Position numbers and translations under genes: made by a program. Positions 42,777-55,183 of a DNA stretch of 64,000 nt are shown in pieces. The notes below the pieces were generated by a model. It was not told the origin of the DNA. It saw only the letters and a list, made by a program, of their open reading frames with translations, and did no database searches. The stretch lies in NCBI GenBank assembly GCA_900315305.1, contig OMYS01000011.1:1-64000 (forward strand). The letters run 5' to 3'. The stretch's first letter is position 1; each line of letters opens with the position of its first letter. Origin of the DNA: an uncultured Eubacteriales bacterium. Lineage in GTDB: Bacteria > Bacillota > Clostridia > Lachnospirales > Lachnospiraceae.

Positions 42777-44419
42777 TTATACGAAACGTCTGATTGCGAC
42801 GATCGGAGCGTGGTCCGCGGAGCGGTCATGTGTGATGCCGTATGCAGAGCCCTTCGCCTCGACGATTCCGCCGTTGCCGTCGTAGATCGCGACATGGCCG
42901 GAGTAGACGATGATGTCGCCTGCCTGTGCCTGAGCCAGGGAAGCAACTGCTGTTCCGCGGCTTGCCCAGTTGCCGGATGTTGTGTATCCGCCGGAGTAGC
43001 CGATCGTATCTCTCAGAACAAGCCATACAAAGTGTGAGCAGTCAACGCCGTTCGTCAGAGAAGAACCGCCCCATACGTACGGGTTGCCGACGAACTGCTC
43101 TGCATAAGAGACAATCGCCGCGCCGCTGCCGGAGTTCGAAGATGTTGATGTAGAAGCTGCTGCCGCCTGCTGTGCCTGCTTTGTTGCCGCCTCAGCCTGA
43201 GCCTGTGCCGCCGCTGCCTGCTCTGCGCTGCCGCCTGCTCAGCTGCTGCCTGTGCCTGCTGCTGTGCCGCTGCTGCTGCCGCCTCAGCCTGTGCCTGTGC
43301 TGCTGCCTGTGCATCAGCCTCGGCCTTGGCCTGTGCCGCTGCCTGCTGTGCTGCCTCAGCTGCCGCCTGAGCCTGTGCCTGTGCCTCGGCATCTGCCTGA
43401 GCCTGTGCCTGAGCCGCTGCTTCCTCAGCCGCCTGCTGTGCTGCCGCTGCCTGCTGTGCCGCCTGAGCTGCTGCCTGAGCTGCCTGAGCCTGTGCCTGTG
43501 CCGCCGCTGTCTGTGTCTGCTCAGCCGTCTCCTGTGCCTGCTGTGCTGCCTGCTGTGCTGTATCAGCTGCTGCCTGTGCGTCAGATGCAGTCGTTGCTGT
43601 CTGTGCCTGGGCTGCTGCCTGATCAGCTGCCGCCCGTGCAGCTGCCGCCTGCTTCTCATTCTCGATCTCAGCGAGTCTCTGATCTAACTGATTGATGGTA
43701 TCATTCAGCTGATCTGCAAGACTCTGTGCGTCTGCGATCTTCTGCTGATAATCTGCATCCTGTGCCTGCAGAGCATCCTTTTCAGCCTGCAGCTGGCTCT
43801 GCTGGTCCGCAAGACCCTGCTGTGTTTTCTCAAGCTGATTCTTTGAATCCTCGAGAGAAGCCTGCTGATTCTCGAGCTGGGACTTCAGCGTGGAAATTTC
43901 AGTAACCGTATCTTCCAGCTTCTGCTGCATCTCCTGATCGGTCTCCGTGAGGTCCATCGCGTAGCTGACCTTGTTCAAGAATGAAGAAAGATCAGATGTC
44001 GAGAGGAGCTGCTGAAGGACGCCGCCGGACTGCTGGTCCTCGTAGTTTTTCTGAATACGAAGCTTCAGCTGCTGATACTGCTCATCGCGATCGGACTCAG
44101 CCTGTGCGAGCTTCGCCTGTGTATCTGCAATCTGGGACTTCGTCGTATCGATCTGAGACTGTACATCATTGATCTGACTCTTCGTCTGATCAATCTGCAT
44201 CATCAGATCAACCAGATTTGCATTTGCGTCATTGATCTGTGCCTGCAGCTGGCCTCTCTTTTCACCAAGAGCTTCAGCCTCAGACTGTGCGTCAGAGAGC
44301 TGACTCTCGGCCGCTGCCTTCTGAGCCTCTACGTCGCTCTGCTCATCAGCAGCAACCGGCATAGCTGTTCCGACGATCATAACGGATGCAAGAAGTAAAC
44401 TGAGGATTCTTTTTTTCAT
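42777..44419 (-). pseudogene. PcsB/CwlO-like NlpC/P60 peptidoglycan hydrolase, interrupted by a frameshift
   Basis: Starting at ATG 44419 (MKKRILSLLLASVMIVGTAM, a signal peptide ending near VAADE), the protein has a long coiled coil (about 30-240), an Ala/Gln-rich linker and, in another frame, a complete NlpC/P60 domain: NPYVWGGSSLTNGVDCSHFV with the catalytic Cys, SGHVAIYDGNGG with the His, ending IVAIRRFV. One base is missing in an Ala-rich repeat near 43225-43231, so the first frame ends at 43055. Adding one base gives a 547-residue protein, so the event is a one-base loss. It could be a sequencing error in low-complexity DNA, a real mutation or slippage. Confidence 0.85.
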
Positions 44420-44506
44420 ATCGCAATAATTCTCCCTTAAATGTTTCGCGTAATGTTTCACGTTTCAGGTTGAAATGACGTTCGAATAAACTACTTAACG
44501 GGTGCC

Positions 44507-46667: not shown

Positions 46668-46739
46668 GGACGGTTAGCTCAACGGGAGAGCACTCGCTTC
46701 ACGTGTGAGGGGTTGCAGGTTCGAACCCTGTACCGTCCA
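46668..46739 (+). tRNA. tRNA-Val, anticodon CAC
   Basis: Acceptor GGACGGT pairs with ACCGTCC; D-arm GCTC/GAGC; anticodon stem CTCGC/GTGAG with loop TTCACGT, anticodon CAC; T-arm CAGGG-type stem with loop TTCGAAC. 72 bases including discriminator A. CCA is not encoded (TTT follows). It is a single-tRNA transcription unit with promoter and terminator. Confidence 0.95.
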
Positions 46740-46857: not shown

Positions 46858-47634
46858 TCAGTATAGCGCTTTCTTCCTCTTTTTAGGAGAGGTTTTTTTT
46901 TCAGCATTTTCTCCGACAAACCATCCCGGTTTTCTAAGAACAACAAATTCCTTGTAGCTCTTCAGCCAGAATACACGGCCGTAGCCGTAGGTATAGACAA
47001 AGCAGCACAGCGCGAGCAGTGCGCCTCCGATGACATCGACAACTGAGTGCTGCTTGACGAACACCGTCGAGAGAATGATCAGTGCCGCCCAGATAATGAT
47101 TCCCGCGCTCAGCCACGCAGGCTTCTTCTTTCTGCAGTTGCTGCGCACAAGTCCCATCGCGACGCTGATCGAGTTGAAGACGTGAATGCTCGGCCAGACA
47201 TTCGTCGGTGTGTCCGAGCTCCAGACGAACTCAACCAGCCTGCAGAAGACATTGTCCCGCGGCAGCTTCGCGAGCCGCAGATTCAGGCGGTTCGGAAAGA
47301 GCGTGCTCACCACAAGGAAGAATGTCATGCCGATGACGAGAACCGTCATCAGCTTGTCATACTCATCCCTGTCGCGAATATACAGGTAGATGCCCCCGAT
47401 CGCGACAAATACGAACCACGACAGATACAGCACGATGAAATACTCGCAGAACGGAATCATCCGGTCGATCTTCAGACCGATCTCGATATAATGCCTTCTG
47501 GGAATAACCTCCAGGATATGAAACCAGATAAGATAAGCCACAAGAAACATAAGCATCGGAAAGCAGTGCACAAAATCGTGCCGGAAGGCCCACGCCTTGA
47601 ACCGCTCCCACTTCGATCCGTTTTTCGTCTCCAT
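46858..47634 (-). CDS. PAP2-type membrane phosphotransferase/phosphatase
   Basis: The 258 residues have six membrane segments and a PAP2 core with NVWPSIHVFNSISVAMG (about 149-165) and VFVKQHSVVDVIGGALLALC (about 192-211), the two catalytic His. The overall pattern resembles inositolphosphotransferase-like PAP2 proteins rather than the earlier PAP2 protein (16896). A basic C-terminus ends KKRKKALY. It follows the GDPD-acylphosphatase gene after five bases, so both may work on glycerolipids or their head groups; this is inference. Confidence 0.87.
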   Translation of the reverse strand: METKNGSKWERFKAWAFRHDFVHCFPMLMFLVAYLIWFHILEVIPRRHYIEIGLKIDRMIPFCEYFIVLYLSWFVFVAIGGIYLYIRDRDEYDKLMTVLVIGMTFFLVVSTLFPNRLNLRLAKLPRDNVFCRLVEFVWSSDTPTNVWPSIHVFNSISVAMGLVRSNCRKKKPAWLSAGIIIWAALIILSTVFVKQHSVVDVIGGALLALCCFVYTYGYGRVFWLKSYKEFVVLRKPGWFVGENAEKKTSPKKRKKALY

Positions 47635-47639
47635 ACGTA

Positions 47640-48797
47640 TCAGTACCTGACCTTAAACTCATACTCGTGAGGATCCACCGGAATGATCTCCTCGTCAATG
47701 TTGTCAATCTCAATAAACCGCTGCTCGCCGAGGTTCTTCATCATCAGCTCAAGCCGCTCCCGAGGTCCCTGAATCTCCATCTCGACGCGGCCGTCGTCCA
47801 TATTCCGCACCCAGCCCGTGACACCGAGGTCCTGTGCGATATAGGTCGCCCTGTACCGGAAGCCAACGGCCTGCACCATGCCGCTGACAATCAGGTGCTT
47901 TCTTATATAGCTTTCCATTTTCTTCTTCTCCCGCAGAACATCCGCCGCTCTCTGCGGCGCCTTCTCTGCCTTCTGTGCCGGCTCAAAGCCCTCGAAAATG
48001 AACAGATCAAAGTCCGGCTTCGCCCTGTCGAGCTCCTCCTGGCTGCGAATCGTCCACCCCGCTGTCGTCGCGTGGTACAGATCTCTGAGAATCCTGAACC
48101 GGATGAGCGACGTGCATTTGCAATTATAGGCGATGAAATCCGGCTTCGTAAGAAAATTCAGGCAGCAGGAGCTCAAGAAGAAGGAGCCGAACGATGCTTT
48201 CTTTGACTTAAGCCCCGTAAAGCGGTCAGAGAGCTGGCCCCGGAGCATCTGCGGCCGGTTCTTCCGGAACCAGCGGAGAACGCCCGGATCAAAGGACTCA
48301 ATGCAGAGCCGCCCCTGATAGGAATCCAGATAAAATGCAACTGCCTCGCAGATTCTGGAAATGTTCTTTCTGTCCTTTATGCGGATCTTGATTTCAAGAA
48401 CAACAGGAACGCGTCCGCCGATCGTCTCGAGCGCATCGCCGAGCCGCGGGATTGTTTCATTTGTCCCGAACAGGTGAAGCCTGCTCACCTCGGCAAATGA
48501 AAGGTCCTCGACGTCGCAGTCAAGGCCCGCCACCCGCTTCAGACAACTGTCGTGGACAACCACCAGCGCCTCATCACTTGTCTCATGAACATCAAGCTCA
48601 ACGCCGTAGCCCTTCTCTGCGGCGAGTCGGAATGACGCGAGAGAATTCTCCGGCGCCGGGCCCTTATTGTCATGGAAGCCGCGATGGGCTATGTAGACTG
48701 TCTCGAAATCCCGCATCCGCTCCGGCCTGCCCCTTCCGGGCCAGACCATAAAGAGCCACAAGAATACGAGGATAAATACTAAGTATGTGATAATCAT
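47640..48797 (-). CDS. Glycerophosphodiester phosphodiesterase fused to acylphosphatase
   Basis: From ATG 48797 the protein has 385 residues: a membrane anchor (about 2-20), a GDPD domain (about 34-270) with IAHRGFHDNKGPAPENSLAS (His38, Arg39, Glu50), VELDVHETSDEALVVVHDS (Glu67, Asp69, His82), and a complete acylphosphatase domain (294-385) with VSGMVQAVGFRYRATYIAQD and GVTGWVRNMDDGRVEMEIQG (Arg and Asn catalytic). GDPD frees glycerol-3-phosphate from glycerophosphodiesters; acylphosphatase hydrolyses acyl phosphates. The fusion is unusual. An ATG at 47918, preceded by GGGAG at nine bases, could also make the acylphosphatase alone. A TATAGT -10 ends seven bases before the ATG, suggesting a leaderless mRNA. 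Confidence 0.88.
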   Translation of the reverse strand: MIITYLVFILVFLWLFMVWPGRGRPERMRDFETVYIAHRGFHDNKGPAPENSLASFRLAAEKGYGVELDVHETSDEALVVVHDSCLKRVAGLDCDVEDLSFAEVSRLHLFGTNETIPRLGDALETIGGRVPVVLEIKIRIKDRKNISRICEAVAFYLDSYQGRLCIESFDPGVLRWFRKNRPQMLRGQLSDRFTGLKSKKASFGSFFLSSCCLNFLTKPDFIAYNCKCTSLIRFRILRDLYHATTAGWTIRSQEELDRAKPDFDLFIFEGFEPAQKAEKAPQRAADVLREKKKMESYIRKHLIVSGMVQAVGFRYRATYIAQDLGVTGWVRNMDDGRVEMEIQGPRERLELMMKNLGEQRFIEIDNIDEEIIPVDPHEYEFKVRY

Positions 48798-48910: not shown

Positions 48911-48983
48911 TGGACGGTACAGGACTCGAACCTGTGACCTTTCACACGTCAAGCGAATGCTCTCCCAGCTGAGCTAACCGTCC
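48911..48983 (-). tRNA. tRNA-Val, anticodon GAC
   Basis: Acceptor GGACGGT/ACCGTCC, D-arm GCTC AGCTGGGA GAGC, anticodon stem TTCGC/GTGAA with loop TTGACGT (GAC), T-arm ACAGG/CCTGT with TTCGAGT. 73 bases, no encoded CCA. It shares acceptor and much of the body with the tRNA-Val(CAC) at 46668, in opposite orientation. Confidence 0.95.
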
Positions 48984-51502: not shown

Positions 51503-54500
51503 TTATCTGCGATGCTTCTTCTTTCTTCTCCTGCCGCCGGATGCTTTTCCTGATACGTCAACGGTATGCCCCGAGCCGCGGGCCTCCCGGACAGCCGCAT
51601 CGATCGCCGCGTTCTTCGCCTCGCGCTCTCTGCGCTCTTCTCCGGAATCATGGACAGCCAGATCATCCTTGAAGTCCTGCGCACGCGTATGCCTGTGCGC
51701 AGCCGTATTCCGCTTCATCATAAATTCCGGAATATCAGGTCCGGCGGACGTCCGTCTCGGCTCATCGGACGGCGCGCTCGTGTGGCTTCCCGTCAGCTCC
51801 GACATATCGTGAGACGCGTAGTAGCTGCCGTTTCCGGCGCTTCTGCTGCCATAGACGTCCTCGCTCTGCGCTGCAGCTTCCGCTCCATACGGCTGGCCAG
51901 CCGCGGTGCTTGTATCCGCGGACGCATCATCCCCCTGTTCCGGTTCGGAATATGATGCGTTCCCGGCGTCTTCATCAGACGAAGCCGGCGTGACATCCGC
52001 GTCCTCGGCCGGGGCATCATTCATATTCTCGACGACTTCATCTTCCGGATATTGATCGGAATCCTGATCCTCCTCGTACGGCTCTTCGTCCACACTGAAG
52101 TCAAAGACTGCCTCGACTCCGTCAGGTGCCGTGCCGCCTTCATCCTCATCTCCGGTCTCTTCAGCGTCTGTATCCGCCTCATCTGCATCATTCACAACCT
52201 CCTCTTCGTCGGCTGTGATATGCTCCTCTGATTCACCGTCCCTTGTTTGAGCGGCAGGCTCCTCCGGGGAAAGCGCCTCAGCGGAGGCGTCGTCTGTCGC
52301 ATCTGCCCGCTGATCATGTCCATCCTGTGAGTCACCGCTGTCTGCCTTGCCCTGATCTGCGGCATTCTCCTCAGGAGACACCTCGCGCATATCATCTGCT
52401 GAAGCATTTTCCTCACCGGCCGTCTCGCGTTCCTTGTCCTTCTCCTTATCGGCCGCAATGCGCTCCTCAACCTTTCTGCCTACATTTCTCAGAAATGAAG
52501 GCAGTGCGGTCTCCCCGTGCTTTTTCTCTTCCTTTCCGTGATCGAGCATTCTGGCATAGCGGGCATCCACATCATCCGACTCAAGAACTGCCTCGTCATC
52601 TCTGACACCCGGACCGCTCTTTTTGCTGATTTCCTCCTCGAATTCCTCATCCTCTTCGTCGCCGAAATCATCATCCAGATCGTCCAGATCATCATCCAGG
52701 TCGTCATCGTCCAGGTCATCATCCGGATGATTGTTCACTGCGGCCCTGCGCGAGGTCATGCCGTGAAAAACGCTTCTCTTCTTTTCGGGTTTCTTCTTTT
52801 CAGCTTCCTTCTTCTCAGGCTCCTTCTTTTCAGGTTCCTTGTCCTTCTCTTCTTCCTTTTCTTCCTCAGAGTGCGCCTCAGACTTCACTGCCTTCTCCGT
52901 GCGCTCACTGCGGCTGCTCTTCACCGCCTCGCTGCCCGGCTTCTGTCCGAAGCTGAAATCATCCTCGTCATCTTCCTCATCGTCGTCCTCGTCATCCTCT
53001 GAGGTATCCTCCTCATCGACGCTGAGGAAGGTCCCGATCGTGTGACCGAGCCGGCTGAGGAAGCTCCCGTTCTTCTCCTTCGGCTGTTTTCTCGCAGGCT
53101 TTGCCTCCCTGCGTTCTTCGGCAGCCTCTGGTTTGTCTGTCTCCTCCGCCGCGGCTTCACGGACTGTCTCTTCAGCGGCTTCTTCCGGTGAGACAGCGGC
53201 CTCCTCCGCAGAGCCCTCATTTTCATCAGACAAAGCAGACTCCGCGCCGGATGGTGTTTCATGTTCCGGGGTATTCACATCAGGCGCATTCTTCTCATCC
53301 TTCTCATAGAAGCTGTACGTCCTGCGGCCCTCGGCATCCTTCGGCTCCGCACTATCCTCCGAAGCTTCGTCCTCGTCATCATCGTCGTCATCATCGAAGT
53401 CCTCAAACCAGGACTTAAGCCGGCTTCCCACCGACTCTCCGGACTTCTTCCTGTCCTTCTTCTTTTCGCGCCGCTCCTCTCTCTCTTCATCGAGGCTGCG
53501 CTTCTGGCTGATCCGCGAGAGCAGGCTCTTCTTTGCGCTCAGGTCATCCTCGTCATACTCAGAAGAATCTGCCCCGTCTTCCCCGGACTTCTCTGCGCCG
53601 GGAACAAGGCCGTCTATGACGCTCATGTCGAGGACCGGAAGACCGTCTGTATCCGTTTTAGCCTCCGCCTCACGCTTCAGATCAGAGCCGTCCTCCGCGG
53701 CGGCTGTCTCCTTCCGGATCGCCTCCTCGGCGTCAGAGGCCTGCCGCGCGACATCCCCTTCTGCCTCAAGAAAGGCGTCGCTGTCCTCGTCTGTCTCCTC
53801 ATTCTGATCAGAAGCAGACGCATCTGCGGAGGCCTGGTTTTCCTCAGAAGCCTCCGGCTCCTCTCCCGCCTTTGCCGGCTCTGTCACAGAAGATGCCTGC
53901 CATGTCTCAGACGCTTCACTCTCTTCAGGTGCATGTGCCGCCTTCTCCGGCTCAGCGCCTGTCTGCTCATTCTCCGAGACGCCGGAGTACTGATTCTCAG
54001 ACTCATCGGCTGCCTGCTCACTCTCAGAGAAGCCAGAATAACGATTGTCAGGCTCAGTGTCTGTCTGTCCGGCCTCCAAGAAGCCGGAGTAACGCTTGTC
54101 AGATCCTGCAGGTGTCTCTTCAGTCTCAGAGAAATTGTCAGCAGCCTCCTCCGCTGCTTCTTCCTGAGGCCCCTGACCCGACGTGTCCCCTGCCGGATAT
54201 GCCGCATCTGCCTGGAAGGACGGCGATGCAGTATCCGCTGCCTTCAGATTCTCCACTCTGCCGGAAACAGCCTTATTTCCTGCGGCTGTCGCGTGCTCGG
54301 CGTACAGTGCGCCTGCCTCCCAGTTCTCGCGCAGGAAATCAGTCTCCATGATCTGCTTTGCGTCGTAGCCGTCGCGGACAAATGCAGAGTCCGTAAACTC
54401 ATAGCTGTACGGCGTGATCCGGACGACAAAGAGCTTCACCGGCATCGCCGCCAGAGAATCGGCCGTGATCTCCTTCTGCTCAAGGACCGTGAAATATTCG

Positions 54501-55183
54501 ACAGAATCATCCGCAACGAGCTCTGCATTTCCCATGATCTGCAGGCCCCTCACGTCCTCCGTCGACACATACGGATCAAAAATCGCCGCCGAAATCTGTC
54601 CGTTGCCGAAAATGCCGCGGAACTTGTTGCCGCCCTCCGTGATGATATACAGCCTGTGCTCAAGGAAAATATACTCGAGCGGCGTGCAGCGCACATAGCC
54701 CTCATCCGCCGTCGCGAGGCAGAGCGTATTGTGCTCGATAATAAAGTCATCGATTGCCCGCTCCAGCTGTACCTCCGGCATGACATTGACCGGGGCGCGC
54801 ATCATCTTTCCGATCTCGTAGCCCGTCCGCGGCGTGTCGCTCTCCGAGGAAATGAAATACCCCGCGATGCCTGCGATTCCGGCCGCCGTCTCCGTGTCCG
54901 ACACATACTTCGCGTAGCCGATATCCGAGAAGCCGATTCCGACAAATGCAATTCTCTTCTCCGCGAGCACGTCCCTGTGCCCTGTGAGAAATGCTCTCGT
55001 CCTGCCTGCGGTGACCGCTCCGTAAAAATTAAAGACAAAGCAGTACCCGTCATAATCTGCAAAGTTCTGCGGTACATCAGAGATCTCCGCGGCGTTGCTG
55101 TTGCCGATCAGGCAGCACAGCGTCTGCGCGATTCTCTCCGCAGAGCTCATTTTTCCATCGTACAGCAAAAGCGTTCTGCTCAT
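51503..55183 (-). CDS. Giant flavodoxin/PNPOx-like protein with a 900-residue acidic disordered tail
   Basis: The 1226 residues split in two. The first 300 are folded: a flavodoxin-like domain (MSRTLLLYDGKMSSAERIAQ; RIAFVGIGFSDIGYAKYV; 1-140) and a pyridoxamine-phosphate-oxidase-like FMN barrel (about 150-290: DDFIIEHNTLCLATADEGYV; KFRGIFGNGQISAAIFDP). The remaining 900 are Glu/Asp/Ser/Ala-rich, with three copies of an RYSGF-type repeat (about 365-410), long Asp runs, Lys/Glu runs and a very basic end, GGRRRKKKHRR. No signal peptide or membrane segment is seen. The combination is unfamiliar; function is unknown, but a flavin-binding redox head on a charged tether is the sequence-based reading. 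Confidence 0.85.
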   Translation of the reverse strand: MSRTLLLYDGKMSSAERIAQTLCCLIGNSNAAEISDVPQNFADYDGYCFVFNFYGAVTAGRTRAFLTGHRDVLAEKRIAFVGIGFSDIGYAKYVSDTETAAGIAGIAGYFISSESDTPRTGYEIGKMMRAPVNVMPEVQLERAIDDFIIEHNTLCLATADEGYVRCTPLEYIFLEHRLYIITEGGNKFRGIFGNGQISAAIFDPYVSTEDVRGLQIMGNAELVADDSVEYFTVLEQKEITADSLAAMPVKLFVVRITPYSYEFTDSAFVRDGYDAKQIMETDFLRENWEAGALYAEHATAAGNKAVSGRVENLKAADTASPSFQADAAYPAGDTSGQGPQEEAAEEAADNFSETEETPAGSDKRYSGFLEAGQTDTEPDNRYSGFSESEQAADESENQYSGVSENEQTGAEPEKAAHAPEESEASETWQASSVTEPAKAGEEPEASEENQASADASASDQNEETDEDSDAFLEAEGDVARQASDAEEAIRKETAAAEDGSDLKREAEAKTDTDGLPVLDMSVIDGLVPGAEKSGEDGADSSEYDEDDLSAKKSLLSRISQKRSLDEEREERREKKKDRKKSGESVGSRLKSWFEDFDDDDDDDEDEASEDSAEPKDAEGRRTYSFYEKDEKNAPDVNTPEHETPSGAESALSDENEGSAEEAAVSPEEAAEETVREAAAEETDKPEAAEERREAKPARKQPKEKNGSFLSRLGHTIGTFLSVDEEDTSEDDEDDDEEDDEDDFSFGQKPGSEAVKSSRSERTEKAVKSEAHSEEEKEEEKDKEPEKKEPEKKEAEKKKPEKKRSVFHGMTSRRAAVNNHPDDDLDDDDLDDDLDDLDDDFGDEEDEEFEEEISKKSGPGVRDDEAVLESDDVDARYARMLDHGKEEKKHGETALPSFLRNVGRKVEERIAADKEKDKERETAGEENASADDMREVSPEENAADQGKADSGDSQDGHDQRADATDDASAEALSPEEPAAQTRDGESEEHITADEEEVVNDADEADTDAEETGDEDEGGTAPDGVEAVFDFSVDEEPYEEDQDSDQYPEDEVVENMNDAPAEDADVTPASSDEDAGNASYSEPEQGDDASADTSTAAGQPYGAEAAAQSEDVYGSRSAGNGSYYASHDMSELTGSHTSAPSDEPRRTSAGPDIPEFMMKRNTAAHRHTRAQDFKDDLAVHDSGEERREREAKNAAIDAAVREARGSGHTVDVSGKASGGRRRKKKHRR

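Follow-up and report, generated by a model that had tools for sequence, protein, structure and literature searches.

Internal in-frame starts are already established. Cas11b is reported to be made inside cas8b from such a start (PMC11899642), RpnS is made likewise inside rpnL (PMC10327210), and endolysins of two polypeptides arise in the same way (PMC9430671); short forms of CcmM and CheA are cited as internal-start products in a further report, according to which proteoforms can differ in localisation (PMC11005335). The gene described here, from a 64,000-nucleotide stretch of DNA (the window) of an uncultured Eubacteriales bacterium, would be a further case. It shares with all five one frame, a common stop and an internal Met from which the C-terminal part alone would be made. 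Unlike in Cas11b, RpnS and the endolysins, what lies at the C-terminus is an entire enzyme, of a family that usually has its own gene, joined to a membrane-anchored partner from a different family; this gene also differs in being known from sequence alone.

The fusion has the fold and catalytic residues of glycerophosphodiester phosphodiesterases (GDPDs; PF03009; 4oec, 2pz0 and 1o1z), but differs from them in its N-terminal membrane helix and C-terminal acylphosphatase (AcP). Its AcP part resembles acylphosphatases (PF00708; 1v3z and 2fhm) in profile match and in its Arg and Asn but, unlike 1v3z and 2fhm, sits behind a GDPD, with its start codon inside another gene. HypF, a carbamoyltransferase, also has an AcP domain within a larger protein, but there it is N-terminal with a GFRP motif, and HypF is a separate gene in the window's genome. 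We found no paper on a GDPD–AcP fusion in the open-licence literature, and nothing useful there on acylphosphatase function.

The fusion gene and its neighbours

The gene occupies 47640–48797 of the minus strand (385 aa plus stop). An N-terminal membrane helix (48738–48797; residues 2–18 in the model) and an Arg-rich stretch after it lead into the GDPD domain (residues 34–273; 47979–48698), followed by a hypervariable linker (residues 274–293; 47919–47978) and the AcP domain. Pfam profiles match both enzymes well above cut-off: PF03009 at residues 38–194 (E = 1e-19; 72 bits versus a curated 23.6; profile positions 1–171 of 244) and PF00708 at residues 301–382 (E = 7e-19; 68.3 bits versus 22.5). 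In a 28-sequence alignment, H38, E67, D69, H82, E135 and K137 of the GDPD were invariant; the HR, ExD and H residues among them (H38, E67, D69 and H82) we take to be catalytic. R314 and N332, read off the sequence, are the counterparts of the classical AcP Arg and Asn, presumably the active-site pair with its catalytic role.

An AlphaFold2 model (28 sequences) had a mean pLDDT of 82, with middling confidence for the AcP part and values below 50 at linker residues 279–292. Its strands run to about residue 268, beyond the Pfam end at 194, so that the GDPD domain looks complete in the model. The top PDB matches of the model by Foldseek were the GDPDs 4oec (TM 0.73 by target length) and 2pz0, in line with a TIM barrel, while a sequence search matched 1v3z, 2fhm and other solved acylphosphatases to the C-terminal part. 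By profile and residues the protein is a GDPD plus an AcP, with both activities predicted; the first-pass annotation, which had read an anchor, a GDPD and an AcP with its Arg and Asn in one frame and called for a domain search, is borne out by Pfam, alignment and model alike. Positive charges flank the cytosolic end of a membrane helix (the positive-inside rule), and an N-out/C-in orientation is expected. The net charge after the helix is 0 to +4 across 21 orthologs, and the Arg-rich residues suggest that GDPD and AcP face the cytosol, which suits an AcP.

A PAP2-family gene (46858–47634, minus strand) begins 5 nt past the fusion stop. This neighbour, to which the first-pass annotation had drawn attention, is conserved: it lies downstream on the same strand in 17 of the 20 fused loci with downstream sequence and at all five unfused orthologs, mostly within about 70 nt (116–400 nt in three). 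The G011/G032/G062 branch showed no PAP2 gene downstream of the fusion. Of 16 outgroup loci, six have one about 1–2.3 kb away on the opposite strand. Since PAP2 is kept at unfused loci, the association is with the GDPD, not the AcP, and its conservation makes a phospholipid or phosphate context plausible. None of our results points towards PlsX/PlsY acyl phosphates, the further link that the first-pass annotation had suggested.

Several other features of the region may be recorded. Two tRNA-Val genes (anticodons cac, gac), at 46668–46739 (plus strand) and 48911–48983 (minus strand), flank the GDPD–AcP/PAP2 pair, and a terminator-like hairpin could be seen by eye between the upstream one (48911–48983) and the fusion. 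The gene at 43055–44461 (minus strand) encodes a coiled-coil protein that looks secreted and whose long tail is rich in Ala and Gln; several overlapping frames are open there, and a related gene is present in 11 neighbourhoods. A 1226-aa protein at 51503–55183 (minus strand) has, by eye, a flavodoxin/FMN-binding-like N-terminal part; its very long tail is acidic and of low complexity.

Spread and origin of the fusion

We used the fusion protein as a query in 61 genomes and in eight more (three of these already covered), and searched the AcP profile (Pfam) in 42 genomes of the genus. The complete fusion was present in 20 of these 42, and in one more (G018) the contig breaks off just within the AcP; five genomes (G023, G024, G029, G031 and G065) had an orthologous GDPD without AcP, and the ortholog in G004 was cut before the point that tells fused from unfused. 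Among 39 loci six were fused, and the fusion relatives named are rumen or gut MAGs labelled ‘Lachnospiraceae’, ‘Clostridiales’ or ‘Clostridia’. All 20 complete orthologs read through the domain border without a stop, so a frameshift there was rejected. One fusion (G027) has a much longer linker (frame of 471 aa) with the same internal Met and Shine–Dalgarno (SD) sequence. A GDPD relative in G026 (locus L128, 7560–8448) consists of two overlapping frames, likely through a frameshift or assembly error.

No further fusion was confirmed in samples of the order (295 genomes) and the class (391), which leave room for rare fusions elsewhere. The only frames there of fusion size with a full AcP match, in G104 and G186 (335 aa), both lie near contig ends in the order sample; the 413-aa frame of G104 was rejected as a fusion for its HypF-like GFRPF motif. 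The fusion is thus conserved within one genus, and the survey across Clostridia that the first-pass annotation had proposed did not extend it to the order and class samples.

In a GDPD tree (16 of 33 unfused loci used; partial G031, G010 and G026 left out), the fused copies form one clade with G023/G024/G029 and G004 (support 100/99). The unfused G023/G024/G029 are nested inside it as sister of the fused G007 (100/99), which indicates loss of the AcP. G065 also fell among the fused copies in a second tree (five fewer rows, G065 added), its exact place being without strong support. The AcP domains of 20 fused copies (G018, being cut, and six HypF or damaged rows left out) form one clade (96/95) versus 27 free-standing AcPs and the genome's own HypF. 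A single origin of the fusion is therefore likely, and the clade speaks against several independent fusions, each with its own Met. A single gain followed by one or two losses is the most economical account, though tallies of changes by themselves cannot separate gain from loss. The free-standing AcP of G023 was rejected as a fission product, as it looks like the genus's other free-standing genes and its frame is cut or shifted; its profile match (L161, contig C22, about 945–1100) stops at 47 of 85, perhaps through a frameshift.

A candidate start codon inside the gene

At the AcP border the first-pass annotation had picked out an ATG at 47918 nine bases after GGGAG. That ATG is codon M294, with the SD sequence at 47928–47932 (minus strand) and a spacer of 9 nt; it opens an internal frame (47640–47918, minus strand; 92 aa plus stop) for a putative free acylphosphatase. 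Of 21 fused orthologs, 20 have ATG here and G020 has GTG. In 19 of the 20 orthologs that reach the VGFRY motif the Met stands 15–17 residues ahead of it, and in the cut G018 it holds the same place, ahead of the RRH strand. We picked 16 representatives of the 21 by eye, one per near-identical group (15, without G018, for the profile and mRNA-structure tests). The Met is present in 15 of the 16, whereas at the 14 preceding positions no residue occurs in more than 7 of 16, and their 18-residue linkers hold only two Met in 288 residues. It is kept in proteins down to about 45% identity, and its distance to the motif shifts by one residue either way, which is more in keeping with a start codon than with a structural residue. 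On this evidence the gene appears to have a conserved in-frame start with an SD, kept amid a hypervariable linker.

Pairing energy with the 16S tail was taken in a −18 to −5 window. At the junction the mean anti-SD energy is −9.0 kcal/mol (n = 21), whereas 191 further in-frame Met codons in these genes average −3.3 (P = 3e-11, or 9e-9 for the 16 representatives alone; all P values are approximate, because orthologs share ancestry). As yardsticks, 87 gene starts from 21 loci (the window and L101–L120) average −7.5 and 1226 internal ATGs of other genes −2.7; by this measure the internal start pairs as well as genuine gene starts do. The window's own gene has a stronger SD at the internal start (−7.6) than at the presumed first one (−3.5), and the averages over 21 genes are equal (−9.3 for the best candidate first start, −9.5 for the internal start). 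Weak internal SDs were seen in G012 (−4.8) and G020 (−3.4). Since 4.8% of the 1226 other internal in-frame ATGs in the genus pair as strongly as M294, the single sequence is only mildly unusual, and it is conservation across relatives that makes the start significant.

The anti-SD profile along the linker peaks at the internal Met codon, where pairing exceeds that in the rest of the linker (P = 3e-4; combined P = 1e-4 when codons are permuted). A synonymous-codon control gave a combined P of 0.002, with only one of 21 genes individually below 0.05; the window's own gene had P = 0.46 (synonymous) and 0.27 (codon permutation). The synonymous controls already average about −6.8, so most of the SD strength is dictated by the protein sequence of a linker rich in Lys, Arg, Glu and Gly; combined over genes, most of which show no significance singly, both controls indicate that codon choice and order additionally favour an SD at the internal start. 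Around the junction the mRNA is less structured (P = 1.5e-4), a measure that is not independent, as purine-rich sequence is unstructured anyway.

Only the fusion gene and HypF match AcP in the window's genome, which is 98.8% complete. A free-standing AcP is absent from nine of ten fused genomes that are at least 90% complete and from 17 of 21 overall; an 86-aa match in G009 was rejected as one, being a cut HypF. G020, in which the ATG is lost, has a separate AcP gene. A need for free AcP could plausibly be why the start was kept, but G012, G016 and G017 retain the ATG despite having a free-standing AcP, so the lack of another AcP does not account for every case.

Candidate products of the gene

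Comparison among relatives supports the fusion, its likely single origin and the conserved start with its SD. From these we infer the making of both products, their location and why both would be needed. One mRNA would give a membrane-tethered GDPD–AcP and a free 92-residue AcP, a dual output that the first-pass annotation had suggested and to which the comparison now lends a probability of roughly 0.77. The fusion would have arisen once near the base of the genus, when AcP coding sequence was joined to an existing anchored GDPD upstream of PAP2. Initiation at the 5′ end would yield the membrane-anchored form with cytosolic catalytic domains, and ribosome entry at the linker SD would allow a start at M294 and so a soluble acylphosphatase; the AcP's own start would have been retained because most fused genomes are without another free acylphosphatase. 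More tentatively, and at somewhat under even odds, the internal ribosome entry site may be kept by selection in a disposable linker as a means of splitting the AcP between a membrane-tethered pool, adjoining the GDPD and perhaps the PAP2 enzyme, and a free cytosolic pool, the internal SD setting the ratio. The free AcP may associate with the tethered copy.

Measured from the first strand, many free-standing AcPs begin at roughly this position, as would be expected if the Met and SD were left over from the pre-fusion AcP gene and now purposeless. Such a relic seems unlikely to us, given that the surrounding linker has lost conservation (at most 7 of 16 share a residue in any preceding column), yet the Met stays in 15 of 16 and down to about 45% identity, with SD strength positioned at the Met. 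The purine-rich stretch might instead serve the protein or the ribosome, as a flexible charged linker or a translation pause between domains, and mimic an SD; the K, R, E and G content of the linker, whose amino acids fix much of the pairing energy, fits this, but it leaves the conserved Met unexplained and codon choice and placement add to the pairing, making it decidedly improbable. Slightly less probable still is that free AcP comes mainly from proteolysis of the linker, predicted to be disordered and hence cleavable, or from a separate short transcript, with internal initiation on the long mRNA minor: proteolysis does not account for a Met plus SD, and a short transcript would still use the same start.

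Fused genes are generally taken to be bound to joint action; the present case suggests that a fusion can outlast deep divergence while the free enzyme is kept, via a start signal in the linker. Annotation pipelines would count one protein here. Together, the five orthologs without AcP and the 21 with it, among them one whose start is weakened, form a compact natural series for testing the purpose of tethering. To our knowledge the bacterial role of acylphosphatase is poorly understood, and the fusion places an AcP beside phospholipid-type enzymes.
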